Shown here one piece after another: positions 745-24,421 of a DNA stretch of 31,550 bases. Below the pieces are notes generated by a model. That model was not told the origin of the DNA and did no database searches. It was given only the letters and a program-made list of their open reading frames with translations. The stretch's first letter is position 1; each line of letters opens with the position of its first letter. The DNA comes from a virus. The stretch lies in IMG/VR virus record IMGVR_UViG_3300032116_000875, positions 1-31,550 of that record; one strand, given 5' to 3'. The position numbers and the translations under genes were made by a program.

Positions 745-3549
745 TTACCAGAATAATAATGTTCTCCAGAATAATGTACCATTACTTTGTGGAATATATA
801 AAAACTTTAAGCCATCTCTAGATTTTATTAATTCCATACGGTTTCCTACATAAGCTGTAGAGTTTACTCCTGGTATTCTACTACCCAAATTAGCTACTCT
901 TTTAACTACATCTAACATATACAAAGAACCAGAGTTTGAAAACTGAATATAAATATTATTCTCTCCATCATAAGCATATGATGTGTTAGTAGTAAAAGTA
1001 TCTACTAATAATCCAGGGACCATGAAGCCATAATCAAAAGTTTGATTGTTGATATTATACCTTTGTACAAAAGCTGTTGCTCCACCTGTAGTAGTCCATA
1101 TGTAGTTATCATTGCCATTACCGTATGTCCATTTTAATCCGCAACCAGCTCCTCTAGCAGGTATACCAAGTAAGACATAGTTTGTAGTGTTGTCAATTGC
1201 TGTTGTGGCAGCAAATGTTAAAGTGTTGTTAGTATTAGCCGTAATAGCAACTTCAACACCTTGGTTTGCACCACCTATAAATCTTACACGTTTACCCACC
1301 CATTGGTTAGTAATCCAGTTCTTAGCTGTATCTACAAGAGTAGTAGTTGATCCTGAAGTAGCTGTACCATATGAATCCATGATTTCATAACGAGTAGTTG
1401 TATCTGGAGTAAAGGCAGCAGTAGCAAAAACAAGTGTATTGTTATTGTTTGCTGTAATTATTAACTCAGCACCTAAGCCTGTACCAGCTACTATTCTTAC
1501 AACATGACCTACCCAAGTACCGCGTATCCAATTTTTAGTGCTATCTACAAGAGTTGTTGTGCTTCCACTTGATGCATAACCAAAAGGATATTGATCTTTT
1601 GGCTGAAATTTAGTATCTCTACCAAAACTAGCAGGGTTAAGAATAATGTATCTAGTTGCCCCTGTTGTTGGAGTAAATGCCGTAGCAGCAGGAATAGTAA
1701 TAGTGTTAGCAGTATTAGAAGTAATTCTTCTAATCTGTGATGTTGGAGTAATAGACCCTCCTGCAACTAACATAATAAATTTACCTGCATGTTCATTTAC
1801 ATCCCATGTTTCATTTGCATCTACAAGTAAACTGGTTGTTGTTGTACTAGTTGCAGCTAAGTTAGCAGTAGCAGTTATTTCAATATCAAAAGTGGTTTGT
1901 CCCCAAATACCTAATATATTATACCCTGTGTTCCAAGCAGCTTCTGTAGCACCTGAAATTCTAACAAACTCACCATGTTTAAACAAATGGCTTAAAGTAG
2001 TAGTTACAGTACCAATAGTTCCAAGTGTTAGTACGTTGATTGTACATGCTGTGCCTGTACCACCTGTAGTAGCTTTAATACCTGTTGTATAACCTGTACC
2101 ACAACGCCTTAATTTTACAGCTATGACAGCACCTAATGGATCTGTTGCAGTAACATAACATTGAGCATTAGTACCCGTAGAAATAGTAAGTACATCACCG
2201 ACAATATAACCTGATCCACCAGCACCTACAGCAATACTAGTTACACCTGTGGTAGCTCTAGTTGCAGTAGCAATACCAAATCCTACATCACCATCTTTTT
2301 TAACTATTGTGTTGCCAAGCACCCCATAATCAAAATAAGGTCCAGTAATCCACATATCTGCTTCCATGTGATAAGCCAAAGTAGCAGAGTTGGCTGTACC
2401 AATAAAGTAGATTAGGTTATCATCTGGATAAATTTCATATTGAGATGTAGCATCTGGAGTAACTGTCCATTTTGAATCTACTTCAAAGTAATCACCTTTA
2501 TTAGCTACAATTCTTCTATCTTGTCCAGCACCTGTACCACCAATAATTCTAATAGAATAATTTCGGTATCTATCAGCAGGCCAAGATTGAGATGAGTCTG
2601 TTATTGTTCTAGTAGTACCTGCGGTGGCAGTACCAGTAACCAAAGGTCCTGTTAAATCACTTGTTGATTCAATTTGAATCTCAGTACCCAATGCCCCACC
2701 AAACATACCTGTATTCATGGTTTTCTGATACCATGTGTTAGTCAACACATCATACATTTGAAATGTATAAAATGGAGATCCAGAAGAACTTGATAATAAC
2801 CATACTACACCCGTTTTTACCATAAACCTACTGTAGGCACTAGGTGTTACATTGTATGCAGTATCTACTTCAATAATTTGTGATGCAATTTCATATGTTG
2901 CAGCTGTAGTAGGTGTTAATCTCCATCCTTGGTTATCCCAAGGCTCATATTGTTGAAGGTTTACATCTACAAAAAACAATGTGGTTTCATTGTTAGCAAG
3001 TATAGTTCTTTGTTCTATCTGGTTGTTACCTGTTAATACTCGGCATGTGTAACCCAACCATTGATTAATTTCCCATTTTTTAGTAGTGTCTACTATTTGA
3101 GTAGCATTTGCAGAAGTTAAATAACCACCATCATGACTTACAGCATCTGAAGAAGAAATGATTTTTCTAACCTCCTGTGCACCTGGGCCAAACATTATTC
3201 TCATCTCAATACCTTCTAAAGCAGTTCCGCCTGCTAAGTAAGGTATTCTAAATTGAGTTGGTCCTAATGTTTCAAGTATACGTCCTCTGTTACCTAAAAC
3301 TTCTTGACACTGCATTGTATTTACAGTTACTGGAGTGTAATAAGTTGGAGCCAACAAAGTAGCCCAAACATTAGTCCAAGTATCATATCTGTAAAATACA
3401 GAAGTTAGACTGTAATAAATATATCTACCATCACCACTTTGTGCGGAAGTCATAGCAGATGCTGCATTGTTTATTGTCTGTGGAAGAGTTGTCATCCACT
3501 CCCATACAGGTAGATCTAGTGTAGTCTTTAAATTATTTGTTACTGGCAT
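745..3549 (-). CDS. large repeat-built tail-fibre-like virion protein
   Basis: A 934-aa protein rich in Thr, Ser, Gly and Asn with almost no charged clusters, as in phage fibres. The first 120 residues have propeller-like aromatic strands (YIYYSLTSVFYRYD). Five degenerate modules of 65-80 residues then share the pattern TLVDsTKNW..WVG..VRI..G.G.......ITAN..NTL.F......T.YEI. They lie near residues 144-222, 306-373, 571-640, 657-723 and 726-795; the last two are the most alike. Between modules 2 and 3 lies a GSGY-VGDVLTIS type glycine-rich insert (about 423-506) and an Ig-like strand segment. The C-terminus again looks propeller-like. It is the longest gene of the structural operon and lies directly before the lysis genes. 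Receptor binding or a tail appendage role is inferred. Confidence 0.6.
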   Translation of the reverse strand: MPVTNNLKTTLDLPVWEWMTTLPQTINNAASAMTSAQSGDGRYIYYSLTSVFYRYDTWTNVWATLLAPTYYTPVTVNTMQCQEVLGNRGRILETLGPTQFRIPYLAGGTALEGIEMRIMFGPGAQEVRKIISSSDAVSHDGGYLTSANATQIVDTTKKWEINQWLGYTCRVLTGNNQIEQRTILANNETTLFFVDVNLQQYEPWDNQGWRLTPTTAATYEIASQIIEVDTAYNVTPSAYSRFMVKTGVVWLLSSSSGSPFYTFQMYDVLTNTWYQKTMNTGMFGGALGTEIQIESTSDLTGPLVTGTATAGTTRTITDSSQSWPADRYRNYSIRIIGGTGAGQDRRIVANKGDYFEVDSKWTVTPDATSQYEIYPDDNLIYFIGTANSATLAYHMEADMWITGPYFDYGVLGNTIVKKDGDVGFGIATATRATTGVTSIAVGAGGSGYIVGDVLTISTGTNAQCYVTATDPLGAVIAVKLRRCGTGYTTGIKATTGGTGTACTINVLTLGTIGTVTTTLSHLFKHGEFVRISGATEAAWNTGYNILGIWGQTTFDIEITATANLAATSTTTTSLLVDANETWDVNEHAGKFIMLVAGGSITPTSQIRRITSNTANTITIPAATAFTPTTGATRYIILNPASFGRDTKFQPKDQYPFGYASSGSTTTLVDSTKNWIRGTWVGHVVRIVAGTGLGAELIITANNNNTLVFATAAFTPDTTTRYEIMDSYGTATSGSTTTLVDTAKNWITNQWVGKRVRFIGGANQGVEVAITANTNNTLTFAATTAIDNTTNYVLLGIPARGAGCGLKWTYGNGNDNYIWTTTGGATAFVQRYNINNQTFDYGFMVPGLLVDTFTTNTSYAYDGENNIYIQFSNSGSLYMLDVVKRVANLGSRIPGVNSTAYVGNRMELIKSRDGLKFLYIPQSNGTLFWRTLLFW

Positions 3550-3851: not shown

Positions 3852-4702
3852 ACTATATACCAATTAGTTGCTGTGTGTACAATATCTAATGACGTATAGG
3901 CATTCTTAATGTTTATCTCAGCCTGATCGTCAATAGGTTCAGATATCAAAGGTACGATTTTTACGGTACTTTCGCCTATGTTCTTTATGTTATATCCAGA
4001 TGGATTGGCAGAAGCAATGGCAGGAAGATTGATAACGCAAGGCGTTAACATGTCAACATATATGTAATAATCAGTCGCTGAAGGGGTATATGGACTAGCA
4101 GTAACTAATACAGTACTACCCCCACCGCTTGGGACATTTTTCCAAAGTTGAGATGCGGAATTATAAACTATAGTGTCACCATTTGAAGGTGAAATAATCT
4201 GAACATCATGAATCTCGTCAAGCTCATACCCGTTCTGTATCTTTACCTCAACAACACCTTGATTGACATGCTGTCTTACAACAATACCAACATAAACTAA
4301 GTGAGCAGGAGCAAGTTGTTTTGTAGATGTCCACGTCCCTGCAACGGTACTGCTTAAGTATAGTTGTGTTCCGGGCGCATATGCAGATGTATTTAACCCT
4401 TCAAGGGAACCAATGACAACAACATATCCGTTCTTATTGTTAGCAATATCTGCCTGCAATACGCCATATGTCTGAGCTGATGTGGCATCAGAAGTAGCAA
4501 GGGCCTTTGTTACCGTTGGCTTATTTCCTGATCCACCATTGATGTACACAACAGTGCCCTTAGTTAAAGTAGCACCTGTTTGATTTCGTACTAACGAAAC
4601 AAGCTTTATAGCAGACGATAATGTCTTTGGCCTACCGTCGGGCCCTGCGACAGTGATGCTGTCATAACCAAACATGTTGCCATTGGCATCAATTACTTGC
4701 AT
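3848..4702 (-). CDS. beta-rich virion protein, tail/fibre-like
   Basis: A 284-aa protein. Residues 35-155 hold a beta-domain common in phage tail and decoration proteins, with the markers VRNQTGATLTKGTVVYINGG, ATSDATSAQTYGVL and APGTQLYLSS. A linker (GYELDEIHDVQI) leads to a SPSNGDTIVYNSASQLWKNV segment, which is the short repeat typically found in phage fibre proteins just before the tip. The last 80 residues form a separate domain containing YYIYVDMLTPCVINLP. The gene overlaps its upstream neighbour by 10 bp and its downstream neighbour by 4 bp. The role is inferred to be a structural tail or fibre component. Which part of the particle it belongs to cannot be told. Confidence 0.6.
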   Translation of the reverse strand: MQVIDANGNMFGYDSITVAGPDGRPKTLSSAIKLVSLVRNQTGATLTKGTVVYINGGSGNKPTVTKALATSDATSAQTYGVLQADIANNKNGYVVVIGSLEGLNTSAYAPGTQLYLSSTVAGTWTSTKQLAPAHLVYVGIVVRQHVNQGVVEVKIQNGYELDEIHDVQIISPSNGDTIVYNSASQLWKNVPSGGGSTVLVTASPYTPSATDYYIYVDMLTPCVINLPAIASANPSGYNIKNIGESTVKIVPLISEPIDDQAEINIKNAYTSLDIVHTATNWYIV

Positions 4703-5025
4703 CTTACCACATTGATATTTGGAGAGTCGACACCCCTAACAATAAATGAAGTGCCAGCAATATCAGATATAACTTTAATGTAATCGTTCTCATCTAAGTG
4801 ATAACCATACTCATCAGTGAATATGTCACCCTCATCTAGTGATACGGTGTATATCGTAACAGTTGTAGCAGTTGCCGCAACATACTTCTGAACGGTCAAA
4901 ACAGCAGCAGCAAGATTGCTAAAGCGCATAGACTGAACCTCTGATATATTATTATCAGGAGCTGTATGGACGATTGTTCCCGATACAGCAACTATAGTAC
5001 CCTCGTTGCTGAATTTACCAGTCAT
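4693..5025 (-). CDS. small beta-sandwich virion protein
   Basis: A 110-aa protein beginning MTGKFSNEGTIVAVSGTIVH. The pattern of alternating hydrophobic residues (MRFSNLAAAVLTVQKYV, TVTIYTVSLDEGD, ENDYIKVISDIAG) resembles a group of small phage virion proteins that pair an 'extra-terms' beta-strand unit with a C-terminal strand such as SFIVRGVD. Its ATG overlaps the stop of the 52-aa gene by one base (TAATG), which indicates coupled translation. The acidic insert DEGDIFTDEYGYHLDEND is unusual in an otherwise neutral beta protein. It is probably a minor head or tail protein; the function is otherwise unknown. Confidence 0.6.
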   Translation of the reverse strand: MTGKFSNEGTIVAVSGTIVHTAPDNNISEVQSMRFSNLAAAVLTVQKYVAATATTVTIYTVSLDEGDIFTDEYGYHLDENDYIKVISDIAGTSFIVRGVDSPNINVVRCK

Positions 5026-8789: not shown

Positions 8790-8991
8790 TCAAAACGTCG
8801 TGGCTATTCACTTTGTCATACAAGATGATATCTCCATACTGAATGCCTGCCACCTGGATTCCAACGTCAAACACGGTAGCCTTATGGTAACGCATTTCGC
8901 TTGAGTCTTCTCCTGTAAGAAGAAGACCACTCTTTGTTTGCTTTTGCTCAGCAACCTTCTGGGCGAGTATATACTTATTTAGGACTTTCAT
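8734..8991 (-). CDS. groES: GroES-type co-chaperonin, short form
   Basis: An 85-aa GroES homologue (E. coli has 97). It keeps the order of the family: an N-terminal strand (KVLNKYILAQKV), a mobile loop (about residues 14-34) containing SGLLLTG where E. coli has GGIVLTG, then KATVFDVG, YGDIILYDK and a C-terminal strand (RYVILQEKDVVVVL). Between the VG and the YGD only seven residues remain, against about 16 in E. coli, so the roof beta-hairpin is missing, as in T4 Gp31. It would close the GroEL cage during folding of phage proteins. It starts within the 3' end of groEL (17-bp overlap) and overlaps the convergent regulator by 56 bp. Confidence 0.85.
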   Translation of the reverse strand: MKVLNKYILAQKVAEQKQTKSGLLLTGEDSSEMRYHKATVFDVGIQVAGIQYGDIILYDKVNSHDVLINETRYVILQEKDVVVVL

Positions 8992-10543
8992 CTGCTCTGA
9001 TATTTGTAATGATAGCGTTTGTACTTAAGATTGTCGTAGCGACCGACACAGCGTTCAATAGAGCATTCTTTGTAACCTTCGTTGGGTCAACAATACCAGC
9101 CTTGATCATGTCAGCATAGCACTCAGCCTTCACGTCGTAACCCTCATTAGGGATTGGCATGATTCCATCCATGATACTATATGCGTCCTTACCTGCGTTT
9201 GTGATGATCTGCCACATAGGTGATCTTAGGGCCTTAATCATAATATTTGATGCAGGAGTGATTTCATGACGTCCAAGCTCAGTTGCCTCGTTGAACAATG
9301 CTACACCACCACCAGGGAGAATACCTTCCTCTAGAGCGGCCTCAACAGCACAGACAGCATCGTCAATGCGGTCCTTCTTCTCCTTCTGCTCGATGTCACT
9401 CAAGGCACCGACATAGATCACAGCTACACCACCCGATAGGTTGGCAGCACGCTCCTTGCGGAAGTCAGTCTCTTCTTTACTTACGCTCTCAAAGATGGTC
9501 TCAGTGATGTCAGTAATACGCTCGTTAATAGCCTCCTGTGAACTAAAATACGGCATAAAGATGGTATTATCCTTACCAACGATCACTTTGGCACACCTGC
9601 CTAGGTGAGACACATCAATCAACGACAAGTCATCACCTGTGTCCTCACTGAAGTATGTGCCGTCCAATGCAATCGCTAGATCTTCTAACAAGTCTTTCTG
9701 ACGGTATCCAAAGCTTGGAGGAAGAATGTTGCATGCCTTTATTTTACCCTGCACTACGTTGATATTCAATGTGTTAAGTGCAGCAGGGCTCATTTCACCG
9801 ATGATAAGAAGTGGCTTATTGTTGGCCACAACATACTGCAACACCTTCTCAATGTTCAATAGGTTGCTGATCTCCTGATCTGTGATCAATACATATGGGT
9901 TCTCCAACACAGCCTCTTGACGCTTATAGTCAGTGATGAAGTGACGGCTATTCCAACCTCGATCAGCTTTAATACCCTTTATCACCTCAACATATGTGTT
10001 GTGGTCCTTGCTGTTCTCAACTGATACCATCTTAACCTCACCGAACGCGTCAGCGATCATGCCGCCAATCTCAGTGTCATTGTTTGCACTGATTGAAGCC
10101 ACATCGCGGAGCTTCTTGCCTGATAACTTCTTGGAGCGCTTGGTCAGATTAGCGACAATTTTCTCAGTAATCTGATTGATCTCACGAATTACCTCAGTGA
10201 CATTGTCTTCTGGAGATAAAACCTCCTCAGCAGCGTCAACAATAGCCTCAGCTAAAACCACACTTGTCGTGGTACCATCACCTGCAACGGTTGCTGTCTT
10301 CTCAGCAGCCTGTCGGACCATCATAACGGCCAAGTTCTCAACCGGATCAAAGAGATTGATCGACTTAGCGACCGTTACACCATCCTTTGTTACGGTGATA
10401 CCGCCCACATGGTGCTCTGATTCAATCAACACTGTGCGACCTCGCGCACCTAATGTGCTTTTTACTGCTCCAGCGATCGTTTTGATGCCTTTAATGAGCT
10501 TTTTGCGACCATCGTCGCCTAAATGAACATGTTTTACTACCAT
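8975..10543 (-). CDS. groEL: phage-encoded GroEL chaperonin
   Basis: A 522-aa group I chaperonin. Conserved landmarks are LGARGRTVLI (31-40), VTKDGVTVAK with Asp54, AGDGTTT with Asp89 (88-93), the hinge and apical residues IKADRGWNSRHF (191-202), and DDAVCAVEAALEEGILPGGG with Asp395. These cover the ATP/Mg-binding and hydrolytic Asp residues (E. coli D52, D87, D398), so the ATPase should be active. Apical residues Trp197 and Phe202 could contact substrate or GroES. The protein ends ADESPK without the Gly-Gly-Met tail of bacterial GroEL. The order groEL then groES is the reverse of the bacterial operon. It is preceded by its own TAnnTTTG element and bounded upstream by terminators. Confidence 0.95.
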   Translation of the reverse strand: MVVKHVHLGDDGRKKLIKGIKTIAGAVKSTLGARGRTVLIESEHHVGGITVTKDGVTVAKSINLFDPVENLAVMMVRQAAEKTATVAGDGTTTSVVLAEAIVDAAEEVLSPEDNVTEVIREINQITEKIVANLTKRSKKLSGKKLRDVASISANNDTEIGGMIADAFGEVKMVSVENSKDHNTYVEVIKGIKADRGWNSRHFITDYKRQEAVLENPYVLITDQEISNLLNIEKVLQYVVANNKPLLIIGEMSPAALNTLNINVVQGKIKACNILPPSFGYRQKDLLEDLAIALDGTYFSEDTGDDLSLIDVSHLGRCAKVIVGKDNTIFMPYFSSQEAINERITDITETIFESVSKEETDFRKERAANLSGGVAVIYVGALSDIEQKEKKDRIDDAVCAVEAALEEGILPGGGVALFNEATELGRHEITPASNIMIKALRSPMWQIITNAGKDAYSIMDGIMPIPNEGYDVKAECYADMIKAGIVDPTKVTKNALLNAVSVATTILSTNAIITNIRADESPK

Positions 10544-11876: not shown

Positions 11877-11998
11877 TGTATAACGATTTTAAAAATTACT
11901 ATATTAAATACCAACTCATTTACTTCGTAGTCAACGTCTGCCTGAAAGTATTCCAAGCCGACCGCTAGGCCGAAAGTTGGGACGAGTATTATTGTCAT
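11867..11998 (-). CDS. 43-aa small protein with C-terminal hydrophobic strand
   Basis: ATG at 11998 overlaps the stop of the 62-aa gene (ATGA), and the TAA at 11867 overlaps the start of the 397-aa gene. The peptide reads MTIILVPTFGLAVGLEYFQA and ends in VFNIVIFKIVIQW. The 'strand - G-L-E-Y - acidic turn - hydrophobic strand ending Q/E-W' layout is a form I have seen in small proteins of Bacteroidota phages. It is too short to be a typical membrane anchor but hydrophobic at both ends. Tight coupling on both sides supports coding. Confidence 0.5.
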   Translation of the reverse strand: MTIILVPTFGLAVGLEYFQADVDYEVNELVFNIVIFKIVIQWQ

Positions 11999-12183
11999 TG
12001 ATTAGACATTTTTCTAGCTTCCTTCATTGCTGCTTTTGCGGCTGCATCAGCTCTATCTTTTGGAGTATTTCCTCTAGCGTCTCGAATCGCAGCAACAGCT
12101 TGAGCTGGGCTTTTAGTTGTACTGCCAGAAAGTCTATCAATATCTCTGTTCTTGAAAGCAATACTATTATAATCTGTTTTCAT
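11995..12183 (-). CDS. 62-aa basic protein sharing its N-terminal tag with the 259-aa protein
   Basis: The N-terminus MKTDYNSIAFKNRDIDRLSG repeats the DYN-x-I-x-FKN-x-x-x-DRLSG motif found at the start of the 259-aa protein at 6891-7670. The remainder is Ala/Lys/Arg/Asp-rich and probably helical (KDRADAAAKAAMKEARKMSN). It is the first gene of the leftward unit that ends with the 397-aa protein, and a TATATTTG element lies 15 bp upstream. The shared tag suggests a common partner or a sorting function; no enzymatic feature is visible. Confidence 0.65.
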   Translation of the reverse strand: MKTDYNSIAFKNRDIDRLSGSTTKSPAQAVAAIRDARGNTPKDRADAAAKAAMKEARKMSNQ

Positions 12184-12197
12184 AATCTTTTTTTTTA

Positions 12198-12205
12198 CAA
12201 ATATA
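12198..12205 (-). promoter_or_regulatory. TAnnTTTG promoter element for the 12183-10683 unit
   Basis: On the minus strand TATATTTG is followed after a T/A-rich 14-nt leader by the ATG at 12183. No clear TTTG box lies 19-21 bp upstream. It is the only such element between the control region and the 62-aa gene. Confidence 0.5.
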
Positions 12206-12231
12206 AGGATTATCAGATATATGGAGTATTT

Positions 12232-12420
12232 GGGTAATGGGGGGAATTTACGCGAGCCGGGCCGAAAGGAAAACCGATTGGTAAAAGGGGTGGGGGGTCT
12301 GCTTTTGGGACTTTTCGCCAGGATTTTTTGGCTTTTTGGTGGGCGCGGTCGTTATGCGATGAAACCAAGATGGGATGGGCTATAGGCCGCGCTGCCGTTT
12401 GTCATTACGTTTGCTAGGCA
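12232..12420. other. G-rich non-coding patch (plus strand)
   Basis: Plus-strand runs of 6 G at 12238-12244, then GGGG-T-GGGGGG and GGG near 12287-12310, then several GGC/GCG steps, make this stretch much richer in G+C than its surroundings. No ORF of convincing length is present on either strand. Multiple G-tracts could form a quadruplex when single-stranded. It separates the leftward units from the rightward arm. Confidence 0.5.
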
Positions 12421-12474
12421 TGTCTTATAATTTGCATTATGTTAAATAGAATACACTTTGAGACCAACCAAACG

Positions 12475-12525
12475 GCCGCTCAGTTGGCCGACCAACCGCT
12501 CGAAATGCCGCTCAATTTGCCGCAA
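12475..12525 (+). repeat. short CCGCTC direct repeats
   Basis: CCGCTC occurs three times within about 40 bp (near 12475, 12497 and 12508), with GCCGC again at about 12520 and 12579. ACCAACC also occurs twice in the same stretch. The copies are short and unevenly spaced. They could be protein-binding sites in the control region, but nothing else supports that. Confidence 0.3.
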
Positions 12526-12611
12526 AAAAAACGTGGTGATCAGGCACACGGTACGAGGAGGTTGCCCTTTCAAACCATTTGCCGCAATAAATATTTCAGC
12601 AGCACATTGAA

Positions 12612-12655
12612 AACACGTATATCGTAACTGCTTGATTTATAGCAAGTTACGTGTT
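12612..12655. other. hairpin with two competing pairings
   Basis: CGTAAC at 12623-12628 pairs with GTTACG at 12646-12651, extended inside by GCT/AGC with one bulged A. The outer octamer AACACGTA (12612-12619) is complementary to TACGTGTT (12648-12655), which uses part of the same right arm. No T-run follows. It sits about 75 bp upstream of the rightward promoter and could be an operator or an RNA switch in any transcript that crosses it. Confidence 0.4.
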
Positions 12656-12724
12656 AGACGAACGTGTCCTTATTTAGAATGATTATAAATTAGCATGAAA
12701 TGTGAAAATAATTGTAGAAAAGTA

Positions 12725-12754
12725 TTGCACATTTAAAAAGTTGCCGTATATTTG
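12725..12754 (+). promoter_or_regulatory. consensus Bacteroidota promoter for the rightward arm
   Basis: TTG at 12725-12727, a 19-bp spacer, then TATATTTG at 12747-12754. This matches the TTTG/TTG-N19-TAnnTTTG form used by the Bacteroidota primary sigma factor. Transcription would begin about 12758-12762 and enter roughly 560 nt of non-coding sequence before the first rightward start codon at 13320. Confidence 0.7.
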
Positions 12755-12757
12755 TAT

Positions 12758-13319
12758 CAAGCAAACGAGCTGACAATATCACTTCTTACTAGCAAGCCTC
12801 TAGGCGTTACGATGACGAATCAGTATACTAAAGGTGGCCCAAACGATAAAGCATAATCAAGCACCTAAATGTGTAAGCCTTGAGATTGCCGTTCAAAGGT
12901 AGGCCTGCTACACGGCTCTAAGCTAAGTTCATTGACATATTGTGACTATCTAACCTAAGTTAATCTAGGCGTGTAATGCGGTAATTTCCCTCGCTGAAAG
13001 AGGTTCGTTTCCGATGGTATATAAGGCAACCATCTAATCTAGTTAAGGCGCTTAGCGTGCATAGTCACAACCGATACTATTTGAGGCCATAAGCGGTGCT
13101 GAGGCCAATACGATAGCACAAATCTAGGACGAACCTAGGGCGCACAGTACATTACTCGGGTGGCTATGCGTCGCAACCACAAGGCAAATGGTCAAAGCTT
13201 GTAGGGAATAATAGAGGGCATGCAGTTTCACGTGGCATGCAAAGCATTAGGTGCAGTTAGAATGACTAATTAATGAGAGCGATACTCACTGCACCACAAA
13301 CCAATTAAAACAAAACAAC
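12758..13319 (+). ncRNA. candidate long structured RNA or leader
   Basis: About 560 nt downstream of a consensus promoter with no ORF of useful length on either strand. Possible stems: 12857-12883 (TCAAG/CTTGA), 12888-12916 (GCCGT/ACGGC enclosing GTAG/CTAC), a 10-bp perfect long-range pair 12940-12949 with 13061-13070 (TTGTGACTAT/ATAGTCACAA) enclosing hairpins at 12989-13003 and 13013-13034, then 13096-13119, 13124-13138, 13160-13180, 13218-13240. The last is 13250-13295, where GGTGCAG/CTGCACC closes a three-way junction with two small hairpins. It may be an independent RNA or a long 5' UTR; no terminator separates it from the first gene. It matches no RNA family I can name with confidence. 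Confidence 0.45.
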
Positions 13320-13430
13320 ATGGAAACTAGAGTAATTAGAATCGAAGGCCGCTATGAAATCATCGGCTTCTTCCAAGAAGGCGTGTTAGTTAAGACTCGC
13401 AAGTTATTAATCCCTTTTAGATATAGATAG
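13320..13430 (+). CDS. 36-aa first peptide of the rightward operon
   Basis: ATG at 13320 follows an A-rich leader (caattaaaacaaaacaac), the usual initiation context of Bacteroidota. The stop TAG ends one base before the next ATG at 13432. The peptide METRVIRIEGRYEIIGFFQE continues with GVLVKTRKLLIPFRYR: strand-turn-strand with a basic tail. It is too short to classify. Coding is supported by operon fit and initiation context. Confidence 0.5.
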   Translation: METRVIRIEGRYEIIGFFQEGVLVKTRKLLIPFRYR

Positions 13431-13431
13431 T

Positions 13432-15892: not shown

Positions 15893-16026
15893 AAGCGTGG
15901 ATAGATGACGGCAATGTCATCATCACACCGGGTGGCTATTATGCCACCCAATGCAGTCAATACACAAATCGTTTAACCCTGCGCCAATTGGTGCAATATT
16001 ACCTAAAAGAATATGGAAGCAATTAA
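15871..16026 (+). CDS. 51-aa small protein in an overlapped slot
   Basis: ATG at 15871 lies inside the end of the 88-aa gene, and the TAA at 16024-16026 lies inside the start of the 85-aa gene. The peptide MGLSGRIKAWIDDGNVIITP continues with GGYYATQCSQYTNRLTLRQL and ends in a helix (QYYLKEYGSN). A strand-strand-helix layout with a helix-turn-helix-like end is possible. Without this ORF about 120 bp would be empty in an otherwise gap-free operon. Confidence 0.45.
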   Translation: MGLSGRIKAWIDDGNVIITPGGYYATQCSQYTNRLTLRQLVQYYLKEYGSN

Positions 16027-16270
16027 GAAAACAAATGGAAAGATTTTCGGAGTAACGTTCGTTAAGAAGGACGGCTCGATTAGAAAGATGACCGCTCGCC
16101 TGGGTGTCAAGAAAGACCTCAAGGGTGTGGGCTTAAAGTTCAACCCCGAAGAGCGTGGCCTCATCGTCGTGTTCGACATGCATAAGAGGGCTTATCGCAT
16201 GATTAATTTATCCACCATCATTTCCTTTACACATGAAAAAAGAAGCAAGAGTAGCGTTCAACAAGCTTAA
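16013..16270 (+). CDS. SH3-barrel-like small basic protein (ARLGVKKxLKGxG family)
   Basis: An 85-aa protein. The sequence GKIFGVTFVKKDGSIRKMTA followed by RLGVKKDLKGVGLKF and then GLIVVFDMHKRAYRMINLST is a strand-rich module that I recognise from phage genomes. In those it is predicted to have an SH3-type beta barrel and is common in early regions. The module may bind nucleic acid; its target is unknown. The C-terminal tail overlaps the next gene by 38 bp. The start lies within the 51-aa ORF. Confidence 0.65.
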   Translation: MEAIKKTNGKIFGVTFVKKDGSIRKMTARLGVKKDLKGVGLKFNPEERGLIVVFDMHKRAYRMINLSTIISFTHEKRSKSSVQQA

Positions 16271-16484
16271 GAAGCTTGGTTGTCCAGTAAGAGAGTCACA
16301 ACCAAACTATCCTGAAAGAGGTTACTTTTGGATAAACGCTGAGTTATCGGAAGCAGAAGGATGGCTAGACTATTGGTCAGCCGACCTATTCTTCGGCAGT
16401 GACAAGCTAAACAAAATCCTAGCCGACCACGGATTATATTGGGAATGGTACAACTCGGCATACGGATGCGTCTATGACGCATAA
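16233..16484 (+). CDS. 83-aa acidic early protein, unknown
   Basis: The protein begins MKKEARVAFNKLKKLGCPVR, a basic helix, then ESQPNYPERGYFWINAELSE, a loop with aromatic residues. The acidic tryptophan-rich part follows (WLDYWSADLFFGSDKLNKIL), ending AYGCVYDA. It is the last gene before the repeat array at 16506. No motif is recognised. Its first 38 bp overlap the preceding gene. Confidence 0.55.
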   Translation: MKKEARVAFNKLKKLGCPVRESQPNYPERGYFWINAELSEAEGWLDYWSADLFFGSDKLNKILADHGLYWEWYNSAYGCVYDA

Positions 16485-16505
16485 CTGCCTGATCTTTAAG
16501 GCCTC

Positions 16506-16763
16506 ATGTCAAATCATGTTACGCCATGTTGAAATTATGTCAACTTTAAAACGCGTAACATGATGATTGTGAGAGGCTTAGCACACTTTTATGTCGAAAT
16601 GTCAACTTTTCCTCAAATATCTAGAGAAAAAAATCCTATAGTATATTATATATATAGAGAGCTTTTTTTTATTTTAATTTTCAATAGGAAAAAAATCAAC
16701 ATTTCGACATATCCCTTATTCTATAAGGAAAAAATCGACATAAAATCAACATTCAACCAACAT
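16506..16763. repeat. symmetric array of ATGTCAA-type repeats (candidate origin or operator)
   Basis: ATGT(C/T)(A/G)A-like elements occur at 16506, 16516, 16526, 16537, 16591 and 16599 in one orientation. The complementary TC(A/G)ACAT elements occur at 16696, 16704, 16735, 16746 and 16757 in the other. Outer copies are 10-11 bp apart (one helical turn) and inner copies 8 bp apart on both sides. Longer inverted repeats are superimposed: 13 bp at 16590-16602 with 16699-16711, and 11 bp at 16513-16523 with 16554-16564. The centre (16620-16690) is strongly A/T. The block fills the only gap of about 300 bp in the rightward arm after 13320. An origin of replication or a multi-site operator is inferred. 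Confidence 0.6.
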
Positions 16764-16781
16764 TAAAAACCCAAATTTGAC

Positions 16782-17348
16782 ATGAACAAAGTAATCCAAT
16801 CATTCCTTGACGGCAAGAAGTGCAAGCAAGGGAACGGCCAAACTGACGGCCAATCGCTCTACCTATTCGGCAACATGATTGCCCAACATCGCGAAGACGG
16901 CATGTATGTCAGCAACGCTGGTTGGCCAACCAGGACGACAAACAAGTGGCTAAACCAATTGCCAAACACAACGGCATACTCACACAAGAAGAAACCACAC
17001 CTAAACGGAGCTGAATGGGATGGTGAGATGACGAGAGTCCATGAGGGCACACCACCGCCAACTTATCTTGACAATGTCGGCACTGCATTTGACATGACGA
17101 TGCGATACATCCGCTTAGATGGATGGAGGGGATACCGAGAGCCAATCTACGCCATTCACTGTGAGCCTGACACGGGTGGATGGGACGACAGCCCATACCC
17201 AAACGCCCAAAAAAATCTTGAGGCAAAAATTTCTGAGCTCAAACGCAATAAAATACCACACAAAGTCGTTACACTAGAGACGTCAAATGTGTTTTGCGTC
17301 AATCACTTTATTGTAGTACCACCTAAATACTTTCCAAATGATAACTAA
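16782..17348 (+). CDS. conserved phage protein with GNxIA-SNAGWxTxTTxxxLNxLP motif
   Basis: A 188-aa protein. The N-terminal 65 residues contain LYLFGNMIAQHREDGMYVSN followed by AGWPTRTTNKWLNQLP. I recognise this as a short conserved domain in many phage proteins, with no assigned function. The middle is charged and His/Pro-rich (YSHKKKPHLNGAEWDGEMTR). The C-terminus has HCEPDTGGWDDSPYPNAQKN and a helix, ending VPPKYFPNDN. It is the first gene after the repeat array, so it is likely controlled through it. No strong TAnnTTTG promoter is visible; CAAATTTG at 16770 is one base off. Confidence 0.6.
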   Translation: MNKVIQSFLDGKKCKQGNGQTDGQSLYLFGNMIAQHREDGMYVSNAGWPTRTTNKWLNQLPNTTAYSHKKKPHLNGAEWDGEMTRVHEGTPPPTYLDNVGTAFDMTMRYIRLDGWRGYREPIYAIHCEPDTGGWDDSPYPNAQKNLEAKISELKRNKIPHKVVTLETSNVFCVNHFIVVPPKYFPNDN

Positions 17349-21869: not shown

Positions 21870-22242
21870 GGGAATAATCAAGAGAGACCATCTTGACGGA
21901 GACAGCCAGTGTAAGGCCGTTGCCGACGTTCGTAACTACCTAGCGTTTGTCATGAGACACCATTACCACATGAGTCTTAATGACATCGCAAGTGAGTTCA
22001 ATCGCAGGCACACGTCAATCATGCGCGCCATTGACACGCATATTGCAAGGACGCTTAAGGGCGATCCATACATAGAGGACAATATAATTGAATACAAAAA
22101 AGAATTAGGAGATGGTGACTTATTTTCAATCGATTACACAAACCTCCACACCTTTCCACGTGGACGTAAGCCAAGCGCTGAAGAGGATCAGGGAGGGGAA
22201 GTCGAAGGAGTTGGTAGAATCGGTCAGAGCTGCCTCGACTAA
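21853..22242 (+). CDS. DnaA-domain-IV-like DNA-binding protein
   Basis: A 129-aa protein from ATG 21853; a longer TTG start at 21799 lies inside the previous gene. Residues 20-62 read CKAVADVRNYLAFVMRHHYH then MSLNDIASEFNRRHTSIMRA. This follows the C-terminal domain of DnaA: a helix containing R-x-x-A-x-Y-L, then S-L-x-x-I-G-x-x-F, then the R-D-H-T-T-V signature (here RRHTSIM). The protein has no AAA+ part. It precedes the primase-helicase and overlaps its start by 131 bp, so its last 43 residues are read in a second frame. It may bind the replication origin or recruit the helicase. Confidence 0.55.
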   Translation: MIEVIKGIIKRDHLDGDSQCKAVADVRNYLAFVMRHHYHMSLNDIASEFNRRHTSIMRAIDTHIARTLKGDPYIEDNIIEYKKELGDGDLFSIDYTNLHTFPRGRKPSAEEDQGGEVEGVGRIGQSCLD

Positions 22243-24421
22243 GGACGAACGCAATGAGCGAAAGAAACTACTACCGGCCATTTGTTTTAGCGGTAAGTTT
22301 GAGAAGCGTGCAGACACTGCCTGCATCGAGCACAGTGGGTTTATATGCCTAGACTTCGATGGCTTTGACGATCAGCAGGCCTTAGATGACAAGCGTTTTG
22401 AGTTACAGCTAAGCCCTTATGCATATGCTATATTCACGTCACCATCAGGTGATGGGTTGAAGGTATTGGTTAAGATACCTGCTGACATTGAGAACCATAA
22501 GTACTACTTTGATGGCCTTCACTCGCTGTTCTTTTGCAAGGAGTTTGATACCACGAGTAAGAACCTCAGCCGTGTATGCTATGAGTCATATGACCCAGAC
22601 ATCTACATTAACGAGGACAGTCAGGTGTTCATTGATATGGTAAGACCATTACCGCAACAGCGTGTTGCGCAAACGACAACCATCCGAGTAGACGACACCA
22701 ATGAGATAATCAGACGACTAAGCATTTGGTGGGGCAAGAACTACGGAATGATCCCAGGACAGCGCAACAACAACCTGTATGTATTTGCTGTGGCCTTAAA
22801 GGAGTTTGGTATACCTGGAGATCAGGCGCAATATGTATTAATGAATCAGGACCCATCGGGTGAGATGCATGCTGAGATACCAACGATTGTTCGATCTGCC
22901 TACAAAGACATGTCGTCGTTTGGTACTAAGTTTTATGAGGACGTTGATAAGTTGGATGAAATCAAAAGGATTGAGAAGATGAGTACATCTCCTCAAGAAG
23001 ATGATTGTGAAGAGTTTTGGACCAAGTCGAGCAAAGGGAAGGTTGAGGCAGTCCCTCACTTATTTAGAACGTTTCTAAATAACAACGGTTTCTTTAAGTA
23101 CTATCCACCGGGCTCAAGAACGTTTGTATTTGTCAGAGTGATTGACAACTTGATCAGCGATGTCAACGAGGATATCATCAAGGACTTTGTGCTTGACTAT
23201 CTGATGGACTACGACGACTTGATGGTGTATAATTACTTCGCCATGAACACCAAGTTCTTCCAAGAGGCGTTCTTAAACTTTGTTCCAAAGATTGAGGCGA
23301 CGTTCAAAGAGGATACCAATGATTCAGCCTATCTATACTACATGAACTGCGCTGTGCATGTCACTAAGGATAAGGTTAATGTGATTGACTACAAGGATTT
23401 GGATGGCCATGTGTGGGAAATGCAGCGCATAAAGAGAAACTTCATCTACCGACCTAACGTTGAGGAATGCGAGTTCAATACATTTGTCAGCAACATCTCA
23501 GGAGATGAGTCAGATAGAATTCTATCAATGCGCTCAACACTTGGATACCTAATGCACAGCCACAAGCCAGCAAGTTATTGTCCAGCTGTTATATTAAACG
23601 ACGAGGTGATTAGTAATAATCCTGAGGGAGGTACAGGTAAGGGAATCTTTGTCAACTCGATCAACCACATGAAGAAGATGGTAAAGATTGATGGCAAGGG
23701 ATTCAGCTTCCAAAAGTCGTTCCCATACCAACGCGTTCAAGTTGATACACAGGTATTGGTGTTTGATGATGTCAGCAAGGGCTTTGCATTTGAGAATCTA
23801 TTCAGTGTCATCACTGAGGGCATAAGCTTGGAGAAGAAGAACAAGGATGAGATTCATGTTCCATTTGAGCGCTCACCTAAGATTGTTATTACGACTAACT
23901 ATGCGATTAGGGGTGCAGGCAACTCATTCGACCGACGTAAATGGGACCTAGAATTCAAGCAGTACTATACCAAGAACAAGACACCTGAGCAGGAGTTTGG
24001 TCACATGTTGTACAGCGGATGGCATGAAGAGGAGTGGATCAGGTTTGACAACTACATGATATCAAATCTTCAGTTGTACCTTAAGAAAGGTCTGATGAGC
24101 AGCGAGTTTAAGAATTTGAAGGTTCGTAAGCTTATTGCTGAGACATCGTCAGAGTTCTATGAATGGGCTACGTCTAGGGATAACATGGATACCAAGCCAA
24201 ATGCCAAGACGCTAGGCCAAGACATGCTTAATAGATTTATCGATGAGTATCCTGACTATGGAAGGTACGGAAGGTATAAGCTGTCAAACGCCAAGTTCTA
24301 CCATTGGCTTGATGCATACGGAGAGTTTGCATTTGGCATGAAACCAAGAGTCATGCGAGTCACACTTGGAAAGCAGATTCATTTTGTTGTTAAAGAATTA
24401 AAACAGTTAAAGTTATGTTAA
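22112..24421 (+). CDS. primase-helicase (BT4734-like primase + SF3 helicase)
   Basis: A 769-aa protein. The N-terminal region (about 50-180) has LLPAICFSGKF, HSGFICLDFDGF with Asp81 and Asp83, then AIFTSPSGDGLKVLVKI, which is the catalytic-like signature of BT4734-type archaeo-eukaryotic primases. A middle segment (GMIPGQRNNNLYVFAVALKE) resembles the PriCT-type linker. The C-terminal helicase has Walker A NNPEGGTGKGIF (about 500-511), Walker B VLVFDDVSKG (about 548), sensor IVITTNYAI (about 590) and an RRKWDLEF arginine patch. It would unwind DNA and prime synthesis in phage replication. The start at 22112 keeps the conserved N-terminal part (SQALKRIREGKSKELVESVR), at the cost of a 131-bp overlap. 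Confidence 0.85.
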   Translation: MVTYFQSITQTSTPFHVDVSQALKRIREGKSKELVESVRAASTKDERNERKKLLPAICFSGKFEKRADTACIEHSGFICLDFDGFDDQQALDDKRFELQLSPYAYAIFTSPSGDGLKVLVKIPADIENHKYYFDGLHSLFFCKEFDTTSKNLSRVCYESYDPDIYINEDSQVFIDMVRPLPQQRVAQTTTIRVDDTNEIIRRLSIWWGKNYGMIPGQRNNNLYVFAVALKEFGIPGDQAQYVLMNQDPSGEMHAEIPTIVRSAYKDMSSFGTKFYEDVDKLDEIKRIEKMSTSPQEDDCEEFWTKSSKGKVEAVPHLFRTFLNNNGFFKYYPPGSRTFVFVRVIDNLISDVNEDIIKDFVLDYLMDYDDLMVYNYFAMNTKFFQEAFLNFVPKIEATFKEDTNDSAYLYYMNCAVHVTKDKVNVIDYKDLDGHVWEMQRIKRNFIYRPNVEECEFNTFVSNISGDESDRILSMRSTLGYLMHSHKPASYCPAVILNDEVISNNPEGGTGKGIFVNSINHMKKMVKIDGKGFSFQKSFPYQRVQVDTQVLVFDDVSKGFAFENLFSVITEGISLEKKNKDEIHVPFERSPKIVITTNYAIRGAGNSFDRRKWDLEFKQYYTKNKTPEQEFGHMLYSGWHEEEWIRFDNYMISNLQLYLKKGLMSSEFKNLKVRKLIAETSSEFYEWATSRDNMDTKPNAKTLGQDMLNRFIDEYPDYGRYGRYKLSNAKFYHWLDAYGEFAFGMKPRVMRVTLGKQIHFVVKELKQLKLC

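Follow-up and report, generated by a model that had tools for sequence, protein, structure and literature searches.

Sequence comparison points to a mirror-symmetric, helically phased iteron array as the probable replication origin of a family of tailed phages

The window analysed here, a 31,550-base IMG/VR virus record, is probably a fragment; relatives reach 57-65 kb and carry tailed-phage genes, including terminase and portal families (G028). It codes for a GroEL at 8975-10543 (PHROG 5725, E 3.2e-128) that is conserved in the relatives, and its leftward and rightward arms are separated by about 1.5 kb with few convincing ORFs (11877-13431), where the GC skew changes sign. The rightward arm contains a gene-free gap of 297 bp (16485-16781), which is the only one of such size in the arm, as reported at the outset, the next largest being 102 bp. 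A small WYL_2-domain protein (Pfam E 4.3e-9) is encoded at 16013-16270, two ORFs upstream of the repeat array that occupies the gap, and a conserved gene (16782-17348, rightward) has its start codon abutting the array in this genome, although it is not always the neighbor of the array in relatives. A primase-helicase of 769 amino acids is encoded at 22112-24421, also rightward and 5.3 kb from the array. An Rfam search of positions 15900-17300 gave no structured-RNA match at an E value of 1.

The array as a whole (16506-16783) is organized as six rightward and six leftward units of the type ATGT[CT]. Rightward units start at 16506, 16516, 16526, 16537, 16591, and 16599 and leftward units at 16696, 16704, 16735, 16746, 16757, and 16777, with successive spacings of 10, 10, 11, 54, and 8 bp on the left, 97 bp across the center, and 8, 31, 11, 11, and 20 bp on the right. 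The initial annotation recognized the six rightward units and the mirror layout but missed the sixth leftward unit (16777-16783) and ended the array 20 bp too early; its account of outer copies spaced 10-11 bp and inner pairs 8 bp apart agrees with the unit listing, in which outer copies lie one helical turn apart. The left outer units (16506-16543, rightward) are ATGTCAA at 16506, ATGTTAC at 16516, ATGTTGA at 16526, and ATGTCAA at 16537, and their spacing is shared with relatives. A 12-bp perfect inverted repeat (16513-16524 with 16553-16564) contains the single opposite unit of the left arm, ATGTTAC at 16555, and two 11-bp perfect inverted repeats are also present in the array. The left inner pair, ATGTCGA and ATGTCAA (16591-16605, rightward; 8 bp apart), is mirrored by ATGTTGA and ATGTCGA on the right (16696-16710, leftward; 8 bp apart), and mirrored inner pairs are likewise seen in relatives. 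Between the pairs lies the 90-bp center (16606-16695), the proposed unwinding element, which is 81% A+T and contains TATATATA followed by a run of eight Ts. To its right, CCCTTATTCTATAAGG (16713-16728), an imperfect palindrome read directly from the sequence and with a similar element at the same place in many relatives, is followed by the right outer units at 16735, 16746, 16757, and 16777 (16735-16783, leftward; 11, 11, and 20 bp apart).

All 10 ATGTYRA units of the array obey the mirror rule, compared with a maximum of 5 among 20,000 local Markov sequences, for a motif that was picked after the array had been seen. ATGTYRA is only mildly enriched in the window as a whole: 41 copies occur where 28 are expected, a number that one shuffle in 100 reaches, and 10 of the 41 lie in the array. 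Because the units are degenerate, an exact 6-mer mirror scan of the window alone does not single out the array; its best score of 4 is not significant, being reached by 40 of 40 Markov windows. A stricter detector that looks for mirrored inner pairs around an A/T center finds the array and finds nothing in 30 shuffled loci. The question is settled by the relatives: their exact mirror arrays have 10 to 12 copies, whereas 25 shuffles gave no more than 6, and sequence comparison thus confirms that the array is real.

There are 31 pattern matches to the 16782 gene, 28 of which encode a relative of it. Upstream DNA is present at 24 of these 28 loci, the remaining four being cut at a contig end, and the comparison between related phages that was suggested at the start reveals a mirror array in 23 of the 24; the exception is L026 (G025), with no array despite its upstream DNA. 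The units are ATGTCAA in class A (the window and G001 to G006), ATGTTGA in class B (G012, G017, G019, and G028), and ATGACGA in class C (13 of the 28 loci). The class C change affects all copies and leaves the layout intact, and in some lineages all units have changed together from RTGTYRA to TGACRA, again with the layout retained. The ATGACGA array of L015 (G014; about 4610-4774) is without the A/T center and one inner pair, which were either deleted naturally or lost through faulty assembly. In a non-systematic look, each near-full-length relative showed a single dense array, with class C units elsewhere near background. The GC skew of the window changes sign near 12 kb, tracking gene direction, and not at the array, and in relatives the sign change lies 3-5 kb from the array.

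Mirror arrays are also present in more distant phages. When the primase-helicase was used for scanning, 80 loci were retained, including some already known; one degenerate scan found an array in 15 of 88 loci, and other scans added further arrays. The annotated phage collection has no close relative of the window phage at the DNA level, and its best protein relative is MW202828 (primase 48%), a complete circular podovirus that has an array of the same kind close to groEL and some 11 kb away from the primase gene. No array was found by an exact 6-mer mirror scan in the stretches examined of Flavobacterium elemo phages. A 43.7-kb phage record without a match to the window primase-helicase (L231, G035) has a symmetric ATGACGA array at 3206-3509, with orientations ++-++--+-- and spacings of 8, 27, 50, 8, 109, 8, 50, 27, and 8 bp, and L230 is similar. 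L209 (JAAGZR010000163.1) is filed in an Aliivibrio metagenome bin but carries a primase-helicase of the window type together with an array, and is probably a misplaced phage contig.

Comparison of 31 arrays, many of them from related records, gives a common blueprint in which outer units are about 10.5 bp apart, inner pairs are 8 bp apart, and the center mostly spans about 97-114 bp between inner units. Same-strand unit distances cluster at a 10.5-bp period (R = 0.75, versus 0.06 at 8 bp), and the arm gaps of 31, 42, and 53-54 bp differ by whole helical turns. Most centers are 75-87% A+T, and the lowest is 66% (L209). Nearest-neighbor stability over 60 bp was compared in nine records with an intact center, two of which (G008 and G010) are close relatives; the center is the least stable segment of the record in six (the window, G001, G008, G010, G013, and G016) and ranks second, third, and fourth in G022, G017, and G028, respectively. 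The window center is the least stable stretch of its record at both 60 bp and 100 bp, and the short iterons lie beside this A/T-rich, easily melted region.

The initial annotation proposed either a replication origin or a master operator, and the first of these is supported by a phased and conserved layout, a weak A/T center, changing neighbors, and co-variation with the primase-helicase (below); the operator is the weaker of the two. As a multi-dimer operator, the array would be bound by a phage regulator controlling an early operon that starts at 16782, consistent with its position directly against the 16782 start codon and in the widest gap that the early arm contains, and phased sites are used by many regulators. 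However, the first downstream gene is not conserved among the 31 arrays, being of the 16782 family, a putative HNH-like family, a putative RadC-like family, or others, and there is no fixed tie of the array to one regulated gene. Promoters sought with a sigma-70-like model are at chance level, and there is no terminator; the array center ranks with the least stable segments in the record, and the units co-vary with a replicative primase-helicase. An operator is thus an unlikely reading, although the primase-helicase may regulate itself through the array.

A protein that reads the units should change with them, and the proteins were therefore screened for co-change with unit class. Twenty families of window ORFs are concordant and 23 are discordant, with the concordant group including the primase-helicase, the 18018 protein, and several families that merely follow descent. 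None of the three binders originally named (18018, 21853, and 27140) follows the class switch convincingly. The 18018 protein is concordant in the screen, in that it is never nearer to the other class, but within the ATGTCAA class it has diverged to about 57%, which is as far as it differs from ATGACGA-class copies, and no copy was found in several records of class C. This absence and divergence make it an unlikely reader.

An origin of the DnaA type, read by the DnaA-domain-IV-like proteins (21853 or 27140) or by host DnaA, was also considered. The window has two DnaA-IV-like genes (PHROG 27829, E 4.8e-4; Bac_DnaA_C, E 2.6e-6, below the curated cut-off), the 10- to 11-bp spacing is similar to that of DnaA-box arrays, and in L197 (3400-3600) a DnaA-domain-IV-like frame, read by eye, lies directly upstream and runs into the array; initiator genes often adjoin their origins, as this frame does. 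However, both 21853 and 27140 are discordant in the class screen, and near-identical recognition helices are paired with both unit types. The 21853 protein is near-identical, recognition helix included, in G001 (ATGTCAA) and G022 (ATGACGA), and the helix-turn-helix of the 27140 protein barely differs between G001 (class A) and G013 (class C). The array contains no DnaA box (TTWTNCACA), and the window has 2 against 4.8 expected. A DnaA-type origin is accordingly improbable, although the DnaA-like proteins could act as accessory loaders. The G022 genome (L215 and L046) is a recombinant, with a G001-type 21853 protein and primase N terminus, and with the remainder of the primase and the array of class C; its DnaA-like gene (D1) and its array are at opposite contig ends.

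The primase-helicase has an N-terminal BT4734-like domain (PF08800, E 6e-18) and a helicase-like DUF5906 domain (PF19263, E 1.6e-6), such that primase and helicase domains are present in one protein. Pfam gives no convincing family for its C-terminal domain, and searches of solved structures by sequence, with either the whole protein or the C-terminal domain, returned nothing convincing. A model of the last 140 residues (mean pLDDT 87.6) predicts a winged helix, with helices at 40-57, 73-83, and 97-112 and a beta wing at 117-128; the winged-helix region spans approximately residues 640-764 (24029-24403, rightward), and residue 749 (codon 24356-24358, rightward), which is Arg here and Lys in TGACRA lineages, falls in the wing. 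The full-length model, in which confidence is low in the helicase core, aligns with SaPI5 Rep (7om0_A, Z 10.1 over 298-753; 7ola_F, Z 10.6 over 298-663), residues 1-177 align with the PrimPol 6zp9 (Z 8.8), and AsfvPrimPol and pox D5/E5 are among the structures aligned. The winged helix alone has no significant Foldseek match (best E 0.12); its best Z values (6.6, 5.9, and 5.8) are to RFX and P4 origin-binding domains, a level that unrelated folds also reach, with the P4 domain 1ka8 at Z 5.8 (rmsd 3.1, 72 residues aligned; Foldseek E 3.9). RFX reads bases with its wing.

In a first comparison, all 78 homologues outside class C have Arg at residue 749, and those of class C have Lys; this is no test of the residue because the hypothesis was chosen after class C had been seen; the R749K change was first read as a single event and was only a lead until independent lineages turned up. 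A pattern scan for TCGTCATNTCGTCATAA identified further phages with ATGACGA arrays, among them G037 and G038, which have Lys at 749 and primases about 67% identical to the nearest relatives then known and far from class C, and whose relatives comprise more Lys and Arg members. The expectation, fixed before inspection, was that Lys records have TGAC units and Arg records TGT units. In the first round, 21 of the 43 Arg records and none of the 6 Lys records had ATGTYRA pairs, and one Lys record and no Arg record had ATGACRA pairs; closer reading revealed TGACRA-type arrays in two more Lys records (G046 and G049). No array was seen in the other three of the six Lys records in this first whole-record test (G044, G051, and G052) or in the Arg record G045, whose place in the tree is beside Lys phages. 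A mirrored match was found in 10 of the 21 Arg records, 9 of which are counted, the TGAT-like match of G071 having been dropped because it looks like noise.

A second round added 38 new primases, of which 33 have Arg, 4 have Lys, and 1 has a gap at this position. Mirrored TGACRA pairs are present in all four Lys records, and a mirrored TGACRA array is present in none of the 28 Arg records searched, one of which (G121) has a lone pair. Lone, unmirrored TGT pairs also occur in three of the four Lys records, and mirrored RTGTYRA arrays were confirmed in two of seven Arg records with a TGT pair. Many Arg records have a one-sided pair only, or none.

Among 55 genomes with both an array and a residue, partly related and so not independent, 39 are Arg/T, 15 are Lys/A, 1 is Arg/A, and none is Lys/T, such that 54 of 55 agree; 44 of the unit labels come from earlier scans, many set by hand from arrays as read, and 11 from the mirror-confirming search. 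This count omits 11 rows (copies of records already included, two Lys rows whose contigs lack an array, and L212, which has Ser at this position) and takes one-sided pairs only when the mirror was confirmed. An earlier tally scored one-sided pairs as T and omitted 19 named rows (copies, fragments, and L212), rows without Arg or Lys at 749, and sequences that were too short. On a tree of residues 1-690, from which the winged helix is excluded, there are five changes of residue, six of unit, and six of joint state, and every residue change therefore coincides with a unit change; the sixth unit change is G031, with ATGACGA-like units, Arg, a primase 39% identical, and an irregular array. When six changes were placed at random, agreement of 54 of 55 was reached in 0 of 20,000 trials (best, 52).

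Of the 769 columns, 749 alone gives full separation, and four of the six best separating columns are at 743, 747, 749, and 751. Residue 416, outside the winged helix, is the second-best separating column in one scan and is Gln in all Lys-lineage rows. On the same scale, the 25921 and 27549 proteins score no more than 0.81 and 0.83; both were found in all four extra Lys records tested and provide the comparison there, most other families not having been found in the available DNA of those four records. Against the proposed reading, some other, unsampled protein could co-vary as well as the primase-helicase does, and Arg-to-Lys is a conservative change. Nonetheless, co-variation suggests that the iteron sequence is matched to the C-terminal domain.

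Taken together, sequence comparison, structural models, and analogy make it very probable that the array is the phage replication origin and that it is bound by the phage's own primase-helicase through its C-terminal winged helix. More tentatively, Arg or Lys at 749 may set the fourth base (T or A) of every iteron, as a one-residue code for origin specificity with about five joint switches. The two mirror-image iteron sets would flank an easily melted A/T center, with the iterons of each arm, other than the 8-bp inner pairs, on one face of the helix. The primase-helicase would bind them through its winged helix, with wing residue 749 reading, or helping to read, the fourth base of the unit, and its monomers would be seated turn after turn along each arm. 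The edges of the center may be marked by the 8-bp inner pairs, and two oppositely facing assemblies (two hexamers) would melt this center, with forks starting from it in both directions. Counting against an origin of this kind are G031, G014, G025, the Lys records and the Arg record G045 without arrays, the many Arg records with a one-sided pair or none, the weak structural matches of the winged helix alone, the low confidence of the modelled helicase core, and the 5.3-kb distance to the gene. A partition (centromere-like) or packaging site is very improbable. ParR-type centromeres do have phased direct repeats on either side of a promoter, but no partition protein was seen among the ORFs of the arm that were scanned against Pfam and PHROGs, and neither function predicts co-variation with the primase-helicase.

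The proposed origin is of a known kind, and by analogy the primase-helicase would work on the array much as SaPI Rep and P4 alpha do on their origins. Helicases of these types recognize short iterons and melt the adjoining A/T region. The P4 alpha origin has iterons and an A/T-rich region, and P4 alpha combines primase, helicase, and a C-terminal origin-binding winged helix in one protein, as proposed here, but the unit sequence and layout appear to differ and the similarity of 1ka8 is at the level of unrelated folds. At the origins of SV40 T antigen and papillomavirus E1, sites are paired on either side of an A/T element and the helicase forms two assemblies, but the origin-binding domain of these helicases is N-terminal, whereas a C-terminal one is implicated here. 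SaPI Rep and SCCmec Cch2 are similarly initiator helicases with a C-terminal DNA-binding region recognizing short iterons, and SaPI5 Rep is a primase-helicase fusion, like the proposed window initiator. In SaPIs, however, the origin is directly downstream of rep, whereas here the array is 5.3 kb upstream of the gene; the mirror-symmetric arms and fixed 8-bp inner pair are further differences, and the array is carried by a tailed phage of some 60-65 kb. The array is not classed as a SaPI origin in the strict sense because it is not next to the primase-helicase gene.

SaPI iterons are described as being read by the C-terminal domain of the Reps (PMC7581432), and the same source names SV40 T antigen and papillomavirus E1. 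Both of these are viral helicases that recognize their own origins. The PLE satellite, as described in PMC7145576, is a phage-related element that requires iteron repeats for replication, but its initiator is a RepA_N protein of another family and its semi-palindromic iterons converge on a poly-A tract. No description of an origin of this phage family was recognized in the open-licence literature searched, and the mirror-symmetric, turn-quantized blueprint across a phage family, with recurrent Arg/Lys and T/A switching, appears to be new.

Origins of uncultured phages are rarely located, and the pairing of initiator and origin is seldom known. Here, comparison alone locates the site, defines a fixed geometry for it, nominates an initiator, and yields a prediction about a single residue, and the blueprint provides a simple origin detector for this phage family. 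Since the switch has recurred in nature, it can serve as a direct test of how an initiator changes jointly with a dozen binding sites, and of whether origin mismatch isolates related phages within one cell. If the residue 749 code is true, close relatives would be split into replication groups, with initiators unable to fire each other's origins.
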